Source: Candidatus Aenigmatarchaeota archaeon (GTDB taxonomy: Archaea > Aenigmatarchaeota > Aenigmatarchaeia > GW2011-AR5). From it: a DNA stretch of 38,712 nt. Both the position numbers and the translations under genes were made by a program. The stretch lies in NCBI GenBank assembly GCA_018304585.1, contig JAGVVY010000028.1, forward strand, positions 1 to 38,712. Direction: 5' to 3'. Below the pieces are notes generated by a model. It made no database searches. It had not been told where the DNA came from and saw only the letters and a list, made by a program, of their open reading frames with translations. This document shows, piece by piece, positions 7,163-31,386 of this stretch (within the stretch, counting starts at the first letter, position 1; every line of letters begins with the position of its first letter).

Positions 7163-7825
7163 ATGCCTGATTTTTATCCTTTTGCGCCATTAAAAACGGA
7201 CATGAAAGTCGTGCTCGGCAAGCCGGCAGCCATAAGCATAATTCTATCAGCCGTGGAAGTATATAAAAAGGAAACCTACGGCATACTTCTTGGGGAGCGC
7301 AGCGGCCAGACGATACGGGTAAATCAGGCGTTGAGCTTCCAGTCCGCCAACCGCGACTACGGGTATGTTTCCATGGACGCGGCAAGGGAAAACAGGATAA
7401 ATTACATACTCCGCTACCTTTCCGGCTTCAAGGTGGTGGGGGATTTCCATTCGCATCCCGACGAGCCGGAGAAGCTGAGCAAGCATGATACCGAGGAACT
7501 GAGGAAATCCGGGGAAGGGACGGTTTCCGTCCTCGTATTGGTGAAAAAGGCATCCGCCGGCAAGAAATGGAGGTATGATGCTGCAGGCAGGAGGATTGCC
7601 GGCGTGCTCGCGGGCAGGTATTTCATAGGCATCACGGCGTGCATCTATAATTACAAGAAGAAGAGGGCCGAGCGGATACCCATAGTCTGCAGGCACCTCA
7701 AGGAAATGAACCAGAGGATAAATCTGTATTCGAGCCTGGAAAAGAAGCTCGAGCGGCTTGAGCGCGAGGAAATGCGGGCAAAGCGCATGAAGAAGATGCT
7801 TGTCGCAAAGAAGATGCGGATATAA
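7163..7825 (+). CDS. JAMM/MPN+ (Mov34/PAD-1-like) metalloprotease domain protein
   Basis: EVYKKETYGILLGE..., VVGDFHSHPDEPEKLSKHDTEEL (HxH...D JAMM signature); basic helical C-terminus. Alternative start at 7202. Confidence 0.85.
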   Translation: MPDFYPFAPLKTDMKVVLGKPAAISIILSAVEVYKKETYGILLGERSGQTIRVNQALSFQSANRDYGYVSMDAARENRINYILRYLSGFKVVGDFHSHPDEPEKLSKHDTEELRKSGEGTVSVLVLVKKASAGKKWRYDAAGRRIAGVLAGRYFIGITACIYNYKKKRAERIPIVCRHLKEMNQRINLYSSLEKKLERLEREEMRAKRMKKMLVAKKMRI

Positions 7826-11385: not shown

Positions 11386-11574
11386 TCAACCCAGATCCGT
11401 ATCTATGTCGTCCAGGGTGTTCTGAAGGCCTTCGACGTCTGTGGCTATGTCGTCCACCGCTTCGGATGCCTGCTCCTGGGTTTTCACCGGGCTATCGTTG
11501 CCCACGCAGCCACTCATGAAAACGAGCGAACTGAGCGCAACAAGCAGCATGAAAGCGGATTTCACGTTCATCAT
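11386..11574 (-). CDS. Small lipoprotein-like protein (62 aa)
   Basis: MMNVKSAFMLLVALSSLVFMSGCVGN lipobox followed by heptad-like acidic helix; 4-nt overlap with upstream gene. Confidence 0.65.
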   Translation of the reverse strand: MMNVKSAFMLLVALSSLVFMSGCVGNDSPVKTQEQASEAVDDIATDVEGLQNTLDDIDTDLG

Positions 11575-13763
11575 ATGTCACCTTGTTCTTCTATAACCGG
11601 CTCTGAAACTGCAGGTTGTGAAGGCTCGCCTACTATAGGCGGCTGCGGTTGGCCAAAGTTTCCGCCTTCAAATCCCTGACCCGGCGCCGGATTATTTATG
11701 GGCCTGAAATTATCTCCCTGCACCGGGTATTGCATTCCCGGACCTCGACTATCTACCGGCCTGAAAGGCTCCCTGTAATTGCCGCCGAATTCATCGTTGA
11801 ATCCGGGTTGCCTAAAGTTTTCAGGCGGAGGCCTGCCGAATTGCTGATCCTGCAAATCGCTTCTGAATTCATCGTCTCTTGCGGTGCCCTGGTCGCTTCT
11901 GTAATCCTGCGGAATCGGCTGGTATTGATCATATTGATTGTTATATTGGAATTGGCTTCTGCCTTCTGCCAAAGCGGTCAGCCCCTGCCTCGCTTCAGGC
12001 GGAAGCCGGTCGCCGAAAGTATCAAGGCACTTCTTTGCGTTCTCGGCATTTTCAAAGCAGGCCTGCTTGCAATCCTCGCCCTGACATACGCCTTCAACTG
12101 CGCCGCCTGCCTGAACGCCTTCCTGCTTCATCATCTCGTAAAGCGGCCCTTCGCAGTAAGGCAAAACGTCAGTTTCAGGATCTCTTATGCCCAGGCTGTA
12201 TTTCTCTATCCTGCACGTCATTGAGAGGCTTTCGCTTCCTTGTGCCATGGTTGCCTGAAGTATGCACTTGTTGTCTTCAAGCCCTGTAATCTCAACCGCA
12301 GGGCCGCTCCTTCCTTCGGGCAGGAATTTCACAGGGCTGCATATCCTGATTGCCTTGTCAAAGCATCTTTCGTCGGTGCCGCAGTCGCTGCCGGTTCCCG
12401 AAACTATGTTGTCCACTTCATCGCTGGAGCTGAGCATCACGTAAACTATGTCTTTTATGGCGACATCCTTGAGATACTTTATGTCGTGCTTTATTTCCGT
12501 CATGTCTTCAATGGTGAGGTCGTCGAGCCTTTCCTTCATCTTGTCCTTTATGTCCTGCACGCTGCCCTTGGCGGATTCAAACATGTCGGCAACCCTTCTG
12601 AACCTGTTCTCGTCCTTCGAGCCCGTTGATTTATAATAATCAGCGACATCATCAGCCTGCTTCGAGAGCTTGTCAAGCTCGACCACAAGCTTTTCCAATT
12701 TGAATGCTATTGAAAGAACTTCCGTGGAATCCGGCACTCCGGAAGGCCTTTCCACATAAACGTCGTTCGCATCCCCTGCGCGGACGCATTCGGCGAACCT
12801 GACGCATCCGTTGTTGTCCCTCTTGACTATCATTTCACCGCCATCCTGGTGGCATTTGCCGTAAGCGGCGTCTTCAACGTTCTGCCTGCAGTAATTCTGC
12901 TGCGTGCATCTGTAGAATATGCACCCGTTCTGGTCAAAGTCTTTCATTATATTCAATCCGCCGGAGCTGCACTCGTTTTCAGCCCTCGCGCGGGATTCCT
13001 GCGTGCCCGGGCAGGTATTTTGCTGCTGCTGTATGCATGATGCGACGCCGCAGCCGTTTTCCTGCCTTACAACGCCCTTGAGGCCCGAAGATTCGCAGCT
13101 TTTAAGGGTAGTGTCTATCTGTTCGCGGGAAGGGCACTGGTCGTATTTCTTGAACAGCTGCCCCTGAAGCTGCCCCCCTTGTTCAAACTGGCAATAGAAC
13201 GTTTCGCACCCGTTCGGCGACTTGGAAAATTGCGGCACTCCCCCGCCGTTCCTGCAAGCATCTATGCCGTCCTTTGGCAACGGCGGGCAGGAAACCACCC
13301 CCTCGCATACTACGCGGACAAAGCCCGTTTCGTCGCGCTCTTCCCTGCATCCGGGCGGCGGACCCCTGTGCTCGGGCTGACCCTGAGGCGGCTGGCCGTC
13401 AGGAGGAAAGTTTCCCTCCGGCGGGCGGTTTTGGTTTTCTTCCGGCAAAGGCGCGTTTTCATCGTGCCCGCCCGTTTCTGCATCAGAAGAATCCGGCGTG
13501 CCTTCGCTGCCGTCAATCGTGCCGGTTTCGTCGTGCTGCTCCTCGCCAGAGGCGTCCTGCCCTTCATCGCTGTCAATCGTTTCCTGCGGCGGGGGTTCGG
13601 AATTCTCCGGAGCCGGGTCATTGGACGGCTCCGAAGGCGGAGGCGCCTGTTCAATGCTGCCTTCTTTCAGTTCTCCTTCGTCGCTTTGGGCGAACGAAAC
13701 GGAAAGAATTAATACGGCGGCAGCAAATAATATGAATATGTTTTTCGCTGCCTTGTTAAGCAT
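11571..13763 (-). CDS. Large secreted Cys-rich protein with four Cys modules and low-complexity linkers
   Basis: Signal peptide MLNKAAKNIFILFAAAVLILSVSFAQ; modules of the type C...C..GG......NGC..F.C; P/E/G-rich N-linker and Q/N/P/R-rich C-tail. Start trimmed to ATG 13763. Confidence 0.8.
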   Translation of the reverse strand: MLNKAAKNIFILFAAAVLILSVSFAQSDEGELKEGSIEQAPPPSEPSNDPAPENSEPPPQETIDSDEGQDASGEEQHDETGTIDGSEGTPDSSDAETGGHDENAPLPEENQNRPPEGNFPPDGQPPQGQPEHRGPPPGCREERDETGFVRVVCEGVVSCPPLPKDGIDACRNGGGVPQFSKSPNGCETFYCQFEQGGQLQGQLFKKYDQCPSREQIDTTLKSCESSGLKGVVRQENGCGVASCIQQQQNTCPGTQESRARAENECSSGGLNIMKDFDQNGCIFYRCTQQNYCRQNVEDAAYGKCHQDGGEMIVKRDNNGCVRFAECVRAGDANDVYVERPSGVPDSTEVLSIAFKLEKLVVELDKLSKQADDVADYYKSTGSKDENRFRRVADMFESAKGSVQDIKDKMKERLDDLTIEDMTEIKHDIKYLKDVAIKDIVYVMLSSSDEVDNIVSGTGSDCGTDERCFDKAIRICSPVKFLPEGRSGPAVEITGLEDNKCILQATMAQGSESLSMTCRIEKYSLGIRDPETDVLPYCEGPLYEMMKQEGVQAGGAVEGVCQGEDCKQACFENAENAKKCLDTFGDRLPPEARQGLTALAEGRSQFQYNNQYDQYQPIPQDYRSDQGTARDDEFRSDLQDQQFGRPPPENFRQPGFNDEFGGNYREPFRPVDSRGPGMQYPVQGDNFRPINNPAPGQGFEGGNFGQPQPPIVGEPSQPAVSEPVIEEQGDI

Positions 13764-13807
13764 AGTGAATTTTGGATTCGGGCCATATATAAAGTTAACG
13801 TGATTCC

Positions 13808-14287
13808 ATGAAAATCGGGCTGGTTGCATTGTCGGGGGTCGCCTTGTTTTTACTCGTTGTTATATCCAGGCCGACGGACCTTGGCGTTCCCCCCGAAATA
13901 TCGTCGCAAGGTTTCGTGCCGGTAAGCATTGAAATGAACGGGAGCGACATGGTGCTGACCGGCGGATGCAGGAGCATTTCAATGACGATAAGCGAGCATC
14001 AGGCGATCTCCATCGCAAGCGGGCTGAACAAAGAATTTTATATCAGGCCGCTCACGCACGATCTCATGAGGGATGTATTCGAGAATTACGGCATAGAACT
14101 GGCTGCGGCAAGGATAGATTCTTTCACGGACGGCGTGTATACGGCCAAGATATACGTCAGGAAGGATTCCAAGATTCTTGAGATGGACGCAAGGCCTACG
14201 GATGCGGTGGGTCTTGCCCTGAGGATGGATGTTCCCGTATACTTCAACGAGGAGCTATTGGGAATCAACGGTGAAAAGACATGCTGA
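13808..14287 (+). CDS. Membrane-anchored bifunctional nuclease domain (DUF151/BFN) protein
   Basis: N-terminal TM; ...SEHQAISIASGLN...RPLTHDLMRDVFENYGIE...RPTDAVGLALRMDVPVYFNEEL. Confidence 0.8.
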   Translation: MKIGLVALSGVALFLLVVISRPTDLGVPPEISSQGFVPVSIEMNGSDMVLTGGCRSISMTISEHQAISIASGLNKEFYIRPLTHDLMRDVFENYGIELAAARIDSFTDGVYTAKIYVRKDSKILEMDARPTDAVGLALRMDVPVYFNEELLGINGEKTC

Positions 14288-24670: not shown

Positions 24671-24967
24671 TCAAATGAGCGCCGGCAGCGTGAAAAAGAT
24701 CGTCGCGAACAGCGATATTATCGTCATGGCCGCGAATATCAGCTTGAATGCCGTTTCATGGTGCCTGGCCATCCCGGTGCCTGCAAGAAGCATGGCTAAA
24801 GGCGCCATCGGCGCAAATACGAGGAGCAGGTAAACGTAAAATTCGGCGTAAGGCGTAAGCACGCTCAGTGCCGGCAGGATGAAATAGAAGACGTTGACGA
24901 TCAGGACCATGAAATAAACCGTGCTGATAGCCAAAAATTTAGGCGAAAGCCCTTCAGGAATGTTCAT
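24671..24967 (-). CDS. Small membrane protein (3 TM)
   Basis: Hydrophobic segments; 4-nt overlap with upstream gene. Confidence 0.65.
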   Translation of the reverse strand: MNIPEGLSPKFLAISTVYFMVLIVNVFYFILPALSVLTPYAEFYVYLLLVFAPMAPLAMLLAGTGMARHHETAFKLIFAAMTIISLFATIFFTLPALI

Positions 24968-25977
24968 TTCAGGTCACCGATGAACCTTTCAAAATTGCTC
25001 CAGCGCGTCTTCTGGGACGCGTAATAAATCACGTCCTGTATCAGTTTCATTGAGGTCTTCGGGTACATTTCATTAAGAAACGCGGACGTTTCAAACATTA
25101 TCGCGCTTCCCCCGGTCTTCTCCAGCAGCTTCTTCACGTTCCCGTCCCCCCTCTTGCCGGTAAATGATTTCTGGTAGGTTATCCGGAATTCCGTGGCTTC
25201 AATACTCTCTTCCAGCATCTTTTCATATCTGGCCCAGTCCAGCCCTTTTTCCATTTCCTCGGCATTCCTGCCAAGTATCCTTGCGGCGTTGCTTATGTCT
25301 TTTTTCACGTCGTTCCTGTAGCTACCCTGCATGGCCTTCAGGCTGAATTTCCTGAACCTATAGCCTATGCTTCTTCTGAGCCAGTTGCCGGCCCAGGACA
25401 CGGCATAGGCCTTCATGTGATTTTTTATCCGGGCGAGCCTCTCTGCGTTCTTCTTGTTGGCTTTCTCGACCGCCTCCTTCACCACGTTCTCGTTGAACCA
25501 TTTTCCGTTGTTGGTGCAGACATCCAGTATTGACGGAAAATTCTTGAGGCGCATTGCCTGGGCATGGATTATCGCGTACAGCGGCGTCTTGGGAGCGAGG
25601 GTTTCGGCCGCCATCCAGAAATGGTTGTGCACGTTGACCTTTTCCAGGTATTCCTCCTGATCCTGAGAATAGAAGGCGTATTTTTTCTCAAAAAGCATCC
25701 GCTTCTTGTAATTATCCGCGGCCTTGAACATCTCGAGCGCCTCGTCCATACTGGCCGGTTTCCTGAAAAAATCAACGCCATATCGGCCTGCGCGAGGGAC
25801 GGTGCAGACTATGCCGAGGCTTCCCATGCGTTTTGTGAGCATCGACGTGATGAATTCGCACCCCGCGTCCCCCCGCATGACCGGCGAGAGCGTGGTAGTG
25901 GCATGCGGGGCTATGAACACGGGGCCGGAATTGTTGTTCTTGAGAAGCATGAAACCCTCTTTGTAATACGCGCGCAT
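24964..25977 (-). CDS. FGase-superfamily-like hydrolase (paralogue 1)
   Basis: GPVFIAPHATTTLS...GCEFITSMLTKRMGSLGIVCTVPRAGRYGVDFFRKP...PLYAIIHAQAMRLKNFPSILDV...IMFETSAFLNE, co-linear with 26014-26976. Confidence 0.5.
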   Translation of the reverse strand: MRAYYKEGFMLLKNNNSGPVFIAPHATTTLSPVMRGDAGCEFITSMLTKRMGSLGIVCTVPRAGRYGVDFFRKPASMDEALEMFKAADNYKKRMLFEKKYAFYSQDQEEYLEKVNVHNHFWMAAETLAPKTPLYAIIHAQAMRLKNFPSILDVCTNNGKWFNENVVKEAVEKANKKNAERLARIKNHMKAYAVSWAGNWLRRSIGYRFRKFSLKAMQGSYRNDVKKDISNAARILGRNAEEMEKGLDWARYEKMLEESIEATEFRITYQKSFTGKRGDGNVKKLLEKTGGSAIMFETSAFLNEMYPKTSMKLIQDVIYYASQKTRWSNFERFIGDLK

Positions 25978-26013
25978 TGGAATCAAGTTATTTATGGCGG
26001 TCCGAGGATAAAA

Positions 26014-26976
26014 ATGCTTATGCTCTCGTTCCGCTACATGCCCGGTTTTAACGTCATAGAAAGCGGAAAGCCCGGGCCTATATTCGTTGCCCCCCATTCT
26101 ACGCTTACCTACTGCTCTGCCGAGCGCGAAGATGTGGGCGCCGAGAACACGGCCGTTGCAGGCGTCAGCGCCATGGGCGGATCGGCAATAATCTCAACAA
26201 TACCGCGCCACGGCGTTCTGGGTATAGACTATAACCGCCGCGTTCCAAAGAAGGCCGAACTCGCAAAGGATCTCGGCGACATAAAGGGCAACGACAAACT
26301 GACTTCATATTACAGGAATTGTGCATGGATAGCCGAGAACCCGTTGCAGGATTCTTACAAGAAAAAGATATATTCCAGCTTCTGGAAAACTGTTGAAACG
26401 ATGGGGAAACGGCATAAGCGGCCCTTCTTCGTCTTCTGCCATACCTTAAGCTCAAGGATAAAGAATCTGCCCTCGGCCGTGGACCTTGTTACCGGAAGGG
26501 GGGCATGGATAGAAAAGGGAAAGGTCGAAAGGATCGCCGCCAAATTGAACAGAAAACACGATTTTAGCCGGTACAGGGAAGACTGGATTTTGGACATGAA
26601 ATTCCACGCTATGATGGAAAAAAAGATATTAGGAAGGCATTTTACTTCGATAAAGGACTCAAAAGGCATGCGCAGGGAGTGGATGCTTCAGGATATAGAA
26701 AAAGCTAACAGTATATCGGGGAAAAAACTGGACATAAAGACGATTGATTTTCTGGAGTACTACCGCGCTATAGAGGACGTGATGAAAAAAAGCGACATAA
26801 AGATAACCGTTGAGAACGTCTATTTCGGCGACACGGCAAAGCCTGTCCTGCCGCTTCTCAAAAGAACCAATGGATCGGGCCTTGAAGTCGAGGCGCAGTC
26901 GTTCCTCAACGAGAATCATGCCGAGGAGGTCGTTTCCGTCATTGAAGGCGTCGTGAAGGAATTCCATAGCGGATGA
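26014..26976 (+). CDS. FGase-superfamily-like hydrolase (paralogue 2)
   Basis: GPIFVAPHSTLTYC...GAENTAVAGVSAMGGSAIISTIPRHGVLGIDYNRRVP...PFFVFCHTLSSRIKNLPSAVDL...LEVEAQSFLNE; SD GAGG upstream; longer ORF trimmed to ATG 26014. Confidence 0.5.
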   Translation: MLMLSFRYMPGFNVIESGKPGPIFVAPHSTLTYCSAEREDVGAENTAVAGVSAMGGSAIISTIPRHGVLGIDYNRRVPKKAELAKDLGDIKGNDKLTSYYRNCAWIAENPLQDSYKKKIYSSFWKTVETMGKRHKRPFFVFCHTLSSRIKNLPSAVDLVTGRGAWIEKGKVERIAAKLNRKHDFSRYREDWILDMKFHAMMEKKILGRHFTSIKDSKGMRREWMLQDIEKANSISGKKLDIKTIDFLEYYRAIEDVMKKSDIKITVENVYFGDTAKPVLPLLKRTNGSGLEVEAQSFLNENHAEEVVSVIEGVVKEFHSG

Positions 26977-27010
26977 TATTAGTTTTCAGGCATTCTAATG
27001 TCATTTGCTA
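26967..27010. repeat. REPIN-like palindromic repeat, copy C (single hairpin)
   Basis: TAGCGGATGATATTAG-TTTTCAGGCATT-CTAATGTCATTTGCTA; 16-bp stem if G-U pairs allowed. Confidence 0.7.
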
Positions 27011-27915
27011 TAGAATACATGCTCCATCTCCCAGTTCAGGGGAACCGGCTGCCTGTTCCTTATGACAGCGGGAATTACACTGTAGGATTCCAGTCTTTTA
27101 CCGGAAAACTTCATCTTCACTATGGCGCTCCTCGAAACATTCCTATGCACGCTTTCCTTCTGGTCGAAGACAAAATTCCCGAGGGAGTAGAAGATTATGC
27201 CGCCCTTGTACCTTTCTATTTTCTCCAGCACGTGCGGATGATGCCCTATCACTGCGTCCGCTCCGGCGTCGATCGCTTCCTTCGCATACATCTCCTGCGA
27301 CTTGATTATTTTGCCGGTCAGATACTCCTTTCCCATGTGGAGGGATATTATCGCCACGTCCGCCTCGCTCTTCATTTCCCTTATCCGCTTCCGTATTACC
27401 GCGGCAAAATCTTTTGTCGTGGCGATCCCCGGCCTCGTCTTTGATGGCGCGAATCCCCGCGGCACGATGGAAGAGAACGCTGCAAAGCCAAAAGCGACTC
27501 CGTTCCTGCGCAGTATATCATATTTCTTTATCGGTATTCCGTTCCATCTGTCTTGCGAATACTCCAGCCCGACGTTCCTGATGCCCGTCTTGCCAAGGAA
27601 TCCAAGCGTGTCGCCGAGCGCCTCGGCGCCGTAATCCAGGGAATGGTTGTTGGCAAGCGACACGATGTTTATTCCGGAATACCGGAGGCTCTTTATAGCT
27701 TCCGGCGGCGCCTCGAACACGATGCGCTTGTTGCGGTTGGCCGTGCCGCGGCTGGAAATGGGGGACTCAAGGTTGGCGAACGTTATATCGGAATCGCGCA
27801 GCAGCGCGGCGCACTGCGAGAAAGGATACCTGTAACCGTGCCTTAGTATGGCGCTGGAAACGCGCCGATCCAGCATTACATCGCCCACAGCGGTGACGAT
27901 CGTTTTCCGCGGCAT
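27001..27915 (-). CDS. CapA family (poly-gamma-glutamate/capsule-type metallophosphatase fold) protein
   Basis: VGDVMLDRRV, ANLESPIS, SLANNHSLDYG, IISLHMGKEY, GADAVIGHHPHVLEKIERYKGGIIFYSLGNFVFDQ. Confidence 0.9.
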   Translation of the reverse strand: MPRKTIVTAVGDVMLDRRVSSAILRHGYRYPFSQCAALLRDSDITFANLESPISSRGTANRNKRIVFEAPPEAIKSLRYSGINIVSLANNHSLDYGAEALGDTLGFLGKTGIRNVGLEYSQDRWNGIPIKKYDILRRNGVAFGFAAFSSIVPRGFAPSKTRPGIATTKDFAAVIRKRIREMKSEADVAIISLHMGKEYLTGKIIKSQEMYAKEAIDAGADAVIGHHPHVLEKIERYKGGIIFYSLGNFVFDQKESVHRNVSRSAIVKMKFSGKRLESYSVIPAVIRNRQPVPLNWEMEHVFYSK

Positions 27916-27973
27916 ATCATTAACTGTGCGCGGCGGTTTAAATTTCAGAAATTCCGCCGGAGCATGACTATAA

Positions 27974-28414
27974 TCATGTTCCGTCCTGGAATTGCGCCGG
28001 CCGCGCCGCATCCCGGGAATATGTTCTTGTATCCGTTACGCTGGCCCCGGGAAACGCGCCTAATATTTTATCCGTACCGGCCCTGTCGGTATACGCGATG
28101 ACATCCAGCCATTTTCTTCCGGGCCACCTGCCGCCTTGATACGTGTCAATATGGAGGGGCGAGCCATTAGCACAATTTTTTACATAGTCACGCAAAGCTT
28201 CATCCCTTTGAAATACGCCGGAAAAACGCAATTGATAGACTCTGAAAAGATTCGCCGCTGTCAATTCGTGCTCGAAATCTCGGGATAACGTTGGCCCTGC
28301 GTGAATTGAAAATGGTGGCCATCTCCCCTCAACGATCTCGTCATCGTCGCCATAATAGTCTATAACAAAGACTGCGCCTTCCGGATATTCCGGCCTTTCC
28401 CATAAATGTGCCAT
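27974..28414 (-). CDS. Hypothetical protein
   Basis: MAHLWERPEYPEGAVFVIDYYGDDDE...; TATA-like TTTTAATAT about 25 nt upstream of ATG 28414. Confidence 0.5.
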   Translation of the reverse strand: MAHLWERPEYPEGAVFVIDYYGDDDEIVEGRWPPFSIHAGPTLSRDFEHELTAANLFRVYQLRFSGVFQRDEALRDYVKNCANGSPLHIDTYQGGRWPGRKWLDVIAYTDRAGTDKILGAFPGASVTDTRTYSRDAARPAQFQDGT

Positions 28415-28465
28415 ATAAGGGCTATGGCGGAAACATATTAAAATCAAAATTTTCTCAGGAACGCT

Positions 28466-29341
28466 TCATAATGCATCCGCCCTGAGTTTCGCCCACTCTT
28501 CTGCGCACTCGGCGAGGACCTGCGCCGCTATCTGGTAGCGCAATTTCGGCAAAGAAGGATGTTCTTTCATGACGCGGCCGTGCCGGTTGAATTCCACGTG
28601 AATTCCGAAGCGCCGGTCGCCGTTTTTTTCGTTGTGTTCCTTGACGTGCCTATATAGGGTATAATTCTTGCTTCCAGTAAACAGGCTTTTGCTTACCTTT
28701 ACACTGATGTCTATCCTGACATTGCGTTCTTTCAGCCGGTCCTTGAGCCTTTTCACGAAGAACCTGCGGAAGGAAAAAGCGTTCTTGCCGCCGCCGATAT
28801 AGGACCTGTCCGGGCCGAAGCCCAAAAGGACGTCGGCCTGCCTGTGGGAATGCATGCCGTGATAGGAAAGCATTATCCTGGGATTCATGGATTCTATGGT
28901 TTTATGATAGAACTCAAAAATATGCATCAGGCTTTTGTTCGTGCTTATCGGGACGTGCGATTCCGCCTCCTCTCGGCCTTCGTCTGCCATGAACGGCAAG
29001 ACCCTTAGTTTCATGCCTTCGGCATCGGACGGCCGGGCTAAATCGAGTTCTGTCCTGAGAATCGTCGGTATTATGTATGCGGACTGCGAATGCCACGCGG
29101 CAAGCTTCGCCAGAGTGGCGGTATTGGCGTCGCCTATTCCTATATAGGCTTTCTTGCCGTGCTTGGGCGACTCTATGCGCGCAGTCTGCGCATGCTCGGC
29201 GACAATGAGCATCCTGCTGCGGGAATAATCCTCCAGCGCCTCGAACAACAGGCTATTTGCATGGCGGGGCCTGAAATTAGCCTCGAACGCGGAAAGGTCT
29301 TCTTCAGTTTTCAGAAGATTGAGTGCCCTCATCTGCCCCAC
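28466..29341 (-). CDS. N-formylglutamate amidohydrolase-like protein
   Basis: MLIVAEHAQTARI; IIPTILRTELDLARP; LSYHGMHSHRQADVLLGFG; FTGSKNYTLYRHV; GIHVEFNRHGR. Confidence 0.65.
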   Translation of the reverse strand: MGQMRALNLLKTEEDLSAFEANFRPRHANSLLFEALEDYSRSRMLIVAEHAQTARIESPKHGKKAYIGIGDANTATLAKLAAWHSQSAYIIPTILRTELDLARPSDAEGMKLRVLPFMADEGREEAESHVPISTNKSLMHIFEFYHKTIESMNPRIMLSYHGMHSHRQADVLLGFGPDRSYIGGGKNAFSFRRFFVKRLKDRLKERNVRIDISVKVSKSLFTGSKNYTLYRHVKEHNEKNGDRRFGIHVEFNRHGRVMKEHPSLPKLRYQIAAQVLAECAEEWAKLRADAL

Positions 29342-30252
29342 GCCATCTCCTCCACCGCCTTGAAAATAGGGGCTATCAGCCTGTCCTTCTTGGATATCTC
29401 CGCTTCATGCCTGACATAATCCATCATCAATGCCGCAACGTTCGTTTCAGTCGCATGGGTTATGCCTTCAAAATGCACGTTTACGTTCGCCTCTATGACT
29501 ACAGGGCCTTTCTTGCCCTCTATTATGTCTATTCCCGCTATGCCAAGGCCGAGCGCTTTGGCGCTGCGTATGGCAATCTTTGTCATTTCCTGGCTGAGCC
29601 TTATCTTCCTGCCCGTTCCGCCGGCGCCTATGTTGGCGCGCCTCTCGCCTTTTTCAGCCACCCTCTTCATGGAAGCGGCGACTTCGTGCCCGATTACAAG
29701 GGCCCGTATGTCTTCGCCCGGGGTGCCGACAAATTCCTCAAGCATTATCGGCTGCTTCATGCCTTCTATCGTATCAAGTATAGGCAGGGCCGAAGACGGG
29801 CTTTCTGCAAACATGACGCCCTTGCCTAACGAACCCTGCAGTAGCTTTATCACTACAGGATACTTCATGTTTTTGAGTATAGGTTTCATCCCCTTTACCG
29901 TTGAACTAAGGTAGCTGAGGGGCGTCGGTATGCCGGCTTTCTCAAGCTTCAGCAGCGTAAGGAACTTGTCGTGCGTTACTATTATAGATTCCGGCGTGAT
30001 GGGCATGTAGGTCCTGCCTTCCAGGAGCTTGCATATAACGTAGCCGTAGTTCCTGTAAGTTCTCGGTATCCTCGGAAAGACGATATCGTATGAGGACAAA
30101 GGCGTGCCCTTCAGCAGGAGCGGTTCGCCGTCCTGTATTCTTACGTCGGGTATCTGGGCATAGGTGACCTTGTCAAACCTTTTCTTCGCTTCTTCCAGAA
30201 GCCATAGGTCCTGCGGCTTCTTTTCCCTTGAACCGAGGATGCATATCTTCAT
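29329..30252 (-). CDS. RimK-like ATP-grasp ligase
   Basis: PVVIKLLQGSLGKGVMFAES; PIMLEEFVGTPGEDIRALVIGHEVAASMKR; GIAGIDIIEGKKGPVVIEANVNVHFEGI. Confidence 0.88.
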   Translation of the reverse strand: MKICILGSREKKPQDLWLLEEAKKRFDKVTYAQIPDVRIQDGEPLLLKGTPLSSYDIVFPRIPRTYRNYGYVICKLLEGRTYMPITPESIIVTHDKFLTLLKLEKAGIPTPLSYLSSTVKGMKPILKNMKYPVVIKLLQGSLGKGVMFAESPSSALPILDTIEGMKQPIMLEEFVGTPGEDIRALVIGHEVAASMKRVAEKGERRANIGAGGTGRKIRLSQEMTKIAIRSAKALGLGIAGIDIIEGKKGPVVIEANVNVHFEGITHATETNVAALMMDYVRHEAEISKKDRLIAPIFKAVEEMAWGR

Positions 30253-31100
30253 TGTTTCACCCCGAAAAGATCAAGTATGCGGCTGAGTATGCCCCTTGGA
30301 GTGATAGGCGCCTTCACGTTGGCCTTGGCATGCTCAAGCAAAGGCGTGAACACGTCCTTGCCGGACAGCCTTTCTATCGTTGCAAAAGGGGGGGATAACG
30401 AGAAAGACGCTACCGTGTCGCCGGCAAACGTGACAAAGCCGTAGGCGGAACCCATGCTTTTAGTCGCCCTTACGGCGGCTTCCTTGATTCCGGTCCCTAC
30501 TCCGGTTCCCCTCATTTTGCCATTGATTATCTCAACAGACGAAACGATATCGTTCCCTACGACGAAGCATCCTATGATTTTGTCAGAAACGGGCTTCCGT
30601 ATGGTAATTGCCTGGCCGCTTTTTCTCAGCCTTATCATGGACTTCATGTGCCTGGCGTCTTCGATAAGCGACGAGCGTTCGCCTATGGTAACCCGTATGG
30701 GAAACTCAAGCTCCGGAAGTATCTGCTCTACCGCGTTTTCGCTTATGGCGTAATAGGTTTTGGGCAGCTCGAACCCCGCCCGCCTGAGCTTCATTGCGCC
30801 TACAAGCTTCTTTTGATATGCCAAGAGCCCATCGAGCCCATAAGGAATGTAAGTTGATGAGGCTTCAAGTGCTGTCACGATCGAGAGAAAAAGATCGCTG
30901 TGCCTTGCTGACGGGAAAGGCAGGACTGCTTCAAACTTGGCTATGTCATGGTCGCCAAAAACAAGCCTTGTTCTTCCCTCCCCGCTTTCTATCCTTATTT
31001 CGTCTGCAGGCACGTAGACGCATTCGTCAAAAATACCCTCTGCCTTCCTGATAAAGGGGGATTCCTCCCTCGAATCCATGCCTATGATTGCGGCTTTCAT
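30249..31100 (-). CDS. Degenerate RimK-like ATP-grasp paralogue
   Basis: Same N-terminal layout as the neighbour (MKAAIIGMDSREESPF...) but catalytic motifs eroded; 4-nt overlap with 29329-30252; TATA TTTTTATAAG upstream of ATG 31100. Confidence 0.6.
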   Translation of the reverse strand: MKAAIIGMDSREESPFIRKAEGIFDECVYVPADEIRIESGEGRTRLVFGDHDIAKFEAVLPFPSARHSDLFLSIVTALEASSTYIPYGLDGLLAYQKKLVGAMKLRRAGFELPKTYYAISENAVEQILPELEFPIRVTIGERSSLIEDARHMKSMIRLRKSGQAITIRKPVSDKIIGCFVVGNDIVSSVEIINGKMRGTGVGTGIKEAAVRATKSMGSAYGFVTFAGDTVASFSLSPPFATIERLSGKDVFTPLLEHAKANVKAPITPRGILSRILDLFGVKQ

Positions 31101-31167
31101 GCAAGACAATCTTGCCGTTTTCTTATAAAAAGGCATACAAGCCGCGATAAAATGGACTTAACATGAA

Positions 31168-31231: not shown

Positions 31232-31386
31232 TGGGGTCGGGAGGATTTGAACCCCCATTAGCTGGTTTCTTCTAAATCATCGCCGCTTGCGCGGCTCTTA
31301 GCTCCAGAAGAGCTGTGCCCGGTCGCTCTTTTTACGGAGCGGCCGTGACTGGAGCCAGCGATCCTGCCTGGTTAGACTACAACCCC
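31232..31386 (-). tRNA. tRNA-Trp (CCA) with intron of about 82 nt (about 31267-31348)
   Basis: Acceptor GGGGUUG/CGACCCC; anticodon stem GCUGG/CCAGC with loop CUCCAG; T-arm GGGGGTTCAAATCCTCC; intron placed after position 37. Confidence 0.85.

Follow-up and report, generated by a model that had tools for sequence, protein, structure and literature searches.

What is the function of an archaeal gene cluster in which two RimK-like ATP-grasp genes lie beside three genes for N-formylglutamate amidohydrolase-like (FGase-like) proteins? We addressed this question for positions 24,671 to 31,100 of a stretch of 38,712 nucleotides (contig JAGVVY010000028.1, GenBank assembly GCA_018304585.1), the whole of which is hereafter called the window. 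The host genome, from Candidatus Aenigmatarchaeota (DPANN), consists of 825,503 bases and is 82.5% complete. Comparisons across the phylum were made with 156 Aenigmatarchaeota genomes, and the p-values for gene co-occurrence are uncorrected for phylogeny. With moderate confidence, we interpret the locus as a RimK-type reversible amino-acid tagging module that combines a ligase (g2), a pseudo-ligase (g1), and FGase-like trimming enzymes. This class of system, RimK-type ligation with trimming, is already known. Three points go beyond an earlier note made by inspecting the DNA alone (the sequence-only reading): the conserved dead partner of the ligase, the presence of RimB in relatives, and g3 as its apparent substitute. 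The gene layout, the retention and loss of active sites, the two clades of RimK copies, the selection acting on them, the g7 fold, the co-occurrence of the genes, and the mutual exclusion of g3 and RimB were all computed in this study. The features of the locus are as follows.

30249–31100, minus strand: g1, degenerate RimK paralogue (pseudo-ligase), recognized weakly by TIGR00768 (E = 1.7e-6); a profile of degenerate copies retrieves RimK structures
29329–30252, minus strand: g2, RimK-family ATP-grasp amide ligase, assigned by PF08443, TIGR00768, and a complete catalytic set
28466–29341, minus strand: g3, member of a second FGase-like family, probable trimming peptidase, assigned by motifs and profile-profile comparison
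27974–28447, minus strand: g4, orphan hypothetical open reading frame (ORF), absent from the sister locus
27001–28011, minus strand: g5, CapA (PF09587, E = 8e-66)
26014–26976, plus strand: g6, FGase-like family c1, divergent paralogue of g7 (E = 1e-34)
25978–26013: intergenic region of 36 bp between the divergent genes g7 and g6
24964–25977, minus strand: g7, FGase-like family c1, assigned by motif, AlphaFold2 (AF2) model, and Foldseek
24671–24967, minus strand: g8, hydrophobic protein of 98 amino acid residues, overlapping g7, conserved only within the genus (3 loci), and possibly an accessory of the module

All ORFs named in the sequence-only reading were present on the strands and in the order described there, with g4 and CapA following g3 and with g7 (minus) and g6 (plus) forming a divergent pair. 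The overlaps that it had reported were also found. g1 and g2 overlap by 4 nt (ATGA). Between g2 and g3, the overlap is 13 nt if translation begins at GTG and 4 nt (again ATGA) if the alternative ATG start at 29332 is used. An in-frame ATG upstream of g1 would put the start of this gene at 31136.

Intact RimK-family ligase and its degenerate paralogue

g2 scored 184 bits against the RimK-family model TIGR00768 (cut-off, 143.4) and 138 bits against PF08443 (threshold, 21; E = 4e-40). Its catalytic set (K, K, glycine loop, D, R, R, N, D, E, and N) is complete, as it is in the orthologues. The best solved relatives of g2 are RimK alpha-L-glutamate ligases (E = 1e-69), and a profile of 30 g2 orthologues retrieved RimK structures first (7qys, 5zct, and 4iwx; E of about 1e-66 or better), with ArgX/LysX-type structures ranking after them. 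g2 fell below the cut-off of every equivalog model scored (RimK NF007764, LysX_arch, MptN, and CofF), reaching 136 bits against a cut-off of 331 for NF007764, the model for S6-L-glutamate ligase RimK. The ratio of nonsynonymous to synonymous substitution rates (dN/dS) between the window and the sister genome (G070) was 0.040 for g2.

The state of the active site was scored on 14 diagnostic alignment columns in every RimK copy. Intact copies retain the two lysines, the glycine loop, Asp-x-Arg, the Asn after the Arg pair, and Asp/Glu/Asn. In g1, the catalytic Lys, the glycine loop, Asp/Arg, and the metal-binding Asp/Glu/Asn are largely gone; a profile of its relatives retrieved the same RimK structures as the g2 profile (E = 7e-33). 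The second copies lack the catalytic set in every family sampled, and both lysines were often replaced by arginine. The description of the locus as carrying two ATP-grasps thus holds in that both are of the RimK type, but the idea of two active ligases is not supported, since g1 no longer has the catalytic residues.

In a maximum-likelihood tree of 71 RimK copies, one branch split the intact from the degenerate copies, with support in 93% of bootstrap trees and ultrafast bootstrap/Shimodaira–Hasegawa-like approximate likelihood ratio test (UFBoot/SH-aLRT) values of 94/88. Many sub-branches match between the two resulting clades, and the ligase/pseudo-ligase pair is therefore probably old and co-inherited. 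The dN/dS of g1 in the comparison with G070 was 0.058, which indicates purifying selection; g1 is therefore a maintained pseudo-ligase rather than a gene in decay. Among the papers searched, none was found to link Aenigmatarchaeota with ATP-grasp proteins or to describe this ligase/pseudo-ligase pair.

FGase-like proteins

g6 and g7 belong to family c1, which is present in about 31 Aenigmatarchaeota genomes. The FGase profile PF05013, applied at the Pfam gathering score, matched nothing in the host genome, g3, g6, and g7 included, and none of 42 family members of these three proteins; among the scanned c1 members, 0 of 36 matched. The FGase-like proteins likewise gave nothing in Pfam or NCBIfam scans, and their relatives gave nothing in Pfam. 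The invariant or nearly invariant columns of c1 correspond to an FGase-like motif, namely, the H of PH.G, D, R...GIDFNR, H, and E. The AF2 model of g7 (26 sequences) had a predicted local distance difference test score (pLDDT) of 88.7 and a predicted template modeling score (pTM) of 0.89. In a Foldseek search of the PDB with this model, the top five matches were five chains of 2ODF (Atu2144) with a probability of 1.00, a template modeling (TM) score of up to 0.62 on the target, and an E of about 1e-3, and the best unrelated match had a probability of 0.33. A PF05013-type profile built from ten bona fide proteins (HutG and its relatives) retrieved 2ODF and 2Q7S, the latter deposited as N-formylglutamate amidohydrolase. 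Its hhalign comparison with c1 gave E = 7.5e-5 and a probability of 62% (0.1% for an unrelated control), a score above the shuffled null. When g3 and g7 were compared with PDB sequences by phmmer and by profile, chance matches alone were returned. On the predicted structure, g7 has the FGase fold, and 2ODF, a PF05013 relative, is the only convincing structural match.

The g3 family is small (7 of the 156 genomes), separate from c1, and marked by the motifs H, D.NT, R..DLAR, HGM, and VEFN. Comparison by hhalign gave E = 2.7e-4 and a probability of 41–51% against c1, and E = 3.7e-3 and 9% against PF05013. The H, D, R..D, H, and E positions were roughly co-linear with those of c1/PF05013 in these alignments, and the scores were higher than all 60 column-shuffled nulls, each for c1 and PF05013. 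Profile comparison therefore makes the FGase fold likely for g3. The proposal of three FGase-like proteins was accordingly upheld, by structure for g7 and by profile-profile scores above the shuffled null for g6/g7 and g3. In all 6 loci with a full g3 gene, it directly adjoins the intact ligase. A scan of viral contigs detected no g3 relatives.

Outside the phylum, c1 stands alone in Woesearchaeota and related archaea (L164, L165, L169–L172, L174–L176, and L178), mostly without RimK neighbors. Genes for rRNA methyltransferase-like and CCA-adding-enzyme-like proteins were observed near several of these stand-alone loci. A different ATP-grasp (PF02655, 450–470 aa), possibly a second kind of ligase partner, was observed near c1 at L103, L115, L118, L134, and L141.

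Co-occurrence of RimK, c1, RimB, and g3 in the phylum

RimK genes were found in 48 of the 156 genomes. Their neighbors in relatives of the host include c1, a 130-aa PF05618 protein, and a 280-aa MscS-like protein. The 130-aa protein is of the RimB type (53 bits against PF05618; threshold, 27). RimB was detected in 35 of the 156 genomes, adjoining intact RimK in about ten loci, and is absent from the host genome. c1 was present in 28 of the 48 genomes with RimK and in 3 of the 108 without it (Fisher p = 7e-15), and RimB in 31 and 4 of these, respectively (p = 3e-16); c1 and RimB occurred together in 26 genomes (p < 1e-14). The association of the RimK pair with FGase-like genes is thus kept in related genomes. 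The presence of RimB, a polyglutamate-trimming protease, beside the ligase in relatives lends partial support to the earlier proposal that the cluster writes and trims an amino-acid tag.

Among the RimK carriers, g3 was found in 0 of 31 genomes with RimB and in 6 of 17 without it (p = 0.001). All 7 g3-bearing genomes lack RimB, which suggests, from gene content, that g3 may replace RimB.

Genes outside the module and other features of the window

The sequence-only reading had included CapA and the hypothetical gene in the system. Both are missing from the sister locus, and CapA (PF09587) was found in 1 of the 19 genomes of the family, that is, in none of the other 18. For these reasons, we judged that g4 and g5 are not part of the system. 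A poly-gamma-glutamate capsule (CapABC/PgsBCA), which had been suggested from the presence of CapA, is unsupported because CapC (PF14102) is absent from the host genome at its 82.5% completeness, and CapA is unique in the family. The slot at 27001–28447, which separates the operon from the divergent genes g6 and g7, holds a different short ORF in G070 and is a site of recent insertion.

A tRNA gene lies just upstream of g1 at 31232–31386 on the minus strand (Rfam tRNA, 38.8 bits; missed by ARAGORN). It is interrupted by an intron of roughly 80 nt, and its anticodon appears to be CCA (Trp). Elsewhere, 7163–7825 (plus strand) encodes a JAB/MPN-domain protein (PF14464), a possible deconjugating peptidase, and 11571–13829 (minus strand) encodes a 752-aa protein that has no Pfam match; G069 contains a relative (cluster c56).

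Proposed mechanism and comparison with known systems

Systems in which a ligase adds glutamate and a peptidase removes it have been described chiefly for the bacterial ribosome and for tubulin of eukaryotes, and amidoligase gene neighborhoods were reportedly treated by Iyer et al. in 2009. In the proposed module, g2 would use ATP to join an amino acid, most likely glutamate, to a free carboxylate, possibly several times. g1 probably binds g2 or the substrate and would be a subunit that contributes specificity or regulation but no catalysis; we infer that g1 and g2 pair physically. The metallo-amidohydrolases of FGase-like type (g3 within the operon, g6 and g7 next to it) would take off or recycle the added residues, g3 filling the role that RimB has in relatives and g6/g7 acting on released or remaining glutamyl amides. 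In Pseudomonas, RimK puts glutamates on RpsF, and RimB takes them off and stimulates RimK (PMC11957791). By analogy with this pair, g2 would be the adding enzyme and g3 the removing one.

The RimABK system of Pseudomonas S6 polyglutamylation resembles the locus in having a RimK-family ligase beside a trimming peptidase, and PF05618 adjoins intact RimK in relatives of the host. The locus differs in its conserved dead RimK paralogue and FGase-like peptidases; no RimA was seen, the host genome lacks RimB, and archaea are not known to have the bS6 target. The Rlo operon comprises the retropepsin RloA, the inactive transglutaminase RloB with seven transmembrane helices, and the ATP-grasp RloC, and shares with our loci the combination of an ATP-grasp, a RimB-like protease, and a membrane protein, together with a link to osmotic stress (PMC12239564). 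In contrast to Rlo, no inactive transglutaminase was seen here, a membrane protein (MscS-like) occurs in relatives only, and the FGase-like enzymes are additional. With the HutG/PF05013 N-formylglutamate amidohydrolases, g7 shares the fold and the PH.G / D / R..(V/I)D.NR / H / E motif, but it has no Pfam match, is longer, contains extra helices, and lies outside a histidine-degradation locus. Alphaproteobacterial operons also pair an FGase with an ATP-grasp; there, however, the ATP-grasp is glutathione-synthetase-like, a gene for a QEGLA-motif protein lies between the two, and the FGase is a bona fide PF05013 member.

Several observations weigh against reversible tagging. No substrate protein or cofactor is assigned to the module, and bS6, the bacterial RimK target, is not known from archaea. 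Ten RimK genomes lack RimB, g3, and c1, several of them being fragmented metagenome-assembled genomes. Judged on gene neighborhoods, Woesearchaeota carry c1 without the RimK pair, so c1 can act independently. Structure prediction, which returned the FGase fold for g7, failed for g3 (single-sequence AF2, pLDDT 34), so the g3 fold rests on profile comparison.

Alternative explanations

An alternative that we regard as unlikely, yet worth weighing, is that the ligase lengthens the glutamate tail of a small cofactor, as MptN, CofF, and MyfA/MyfB do, and that the tail is cut back by the FGase-like proteins. The MptN and CofF models, too, give scores for each of the 30 intact copies, and the glutamate chain of methylofuran requires a pair of ATP-grasps, MyfA together with MyfB (PMC8141765). 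The scores of g2 are, however, far from the cut-offs (122 bits against 350 for MptN and 54 against 300 for CofF), and g2 is closest to RimK structures. Furthermore, the second ligase at the locus is dead, the system is accompanied in relatives by RimB, a protease acting on peptide chains, and no cofactor genes were noticed beside the locus. Slightly less likely is an osmotic or turgor module, in which the ligase would make a soluble pool of glutamyl peptide or polyglutamate, the peptidases would consume it, and an MscS-type channel would vent it. Such a role is possible given the MscS-like gene (PF00924/PF05552) in 24 loci of relatives, often between the pseudo-ligase and c1 (about 280 aa; L108–L114, L131, L137, and L141; families f28–f30), and given that the Pseudomonas rlo locus (ATP-grasp and retropepsin) works in hypo-osmotic stress (PMC12239564); RimK can also make free poly-alpha-glutamate (PMC11957791). 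The genus of the window, however, has no MscS neighbor at the locus, and adjacency by itself is no proof of shared function.

It is improbable that the RimK pair and the FGase-like hydrolases are adjacent merely by chance. In favor of this view, Woesearchaeota carry c1 on its own, and the locus does take up foreign genes, as CapA/g4 demonstrate. Against it, the components co-occur over many families, even in genomes that have them scattered along the chromosome (G116, assembled as one contig), and g1, g2, and g3 have short overlaps. Least probable of all is that g2 works on LysW in the manner of LysX/ArgX, in amino-group-carrier biosynthesis of lysine or arginine. The score of g2 against the LysX_arch model, 138 bits, speaks for it but is below the cut-off of 275.6 bits, and LysW (TIGR01206) was above its cut-off in 0 of the 156 genomes, leaving this explanation close to refuted.

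Implications

The reversible tagging module may represent a hitherto undescribed DPANN system of protein or peptide glutamylation, with a ligase/pseudo-ligase pair co-inherited since before many families split and a trimmer swapped between the RimB retropepsin and FGase-fold g3; we put this forward tentatively, with a little less than even confidence. Because g3 and RimB exclude each other, the prediction that g3 removes the residues added by g2 is open to direct test. If the interpretation is true, two FGase-like peptidase families missed by current databases would be defined, a natural ATP-grasp ligase/pseudo-ligase pair would be available for study, and reversible tagging would extend to organisms whose genomes measure only about 0.8 Mb.

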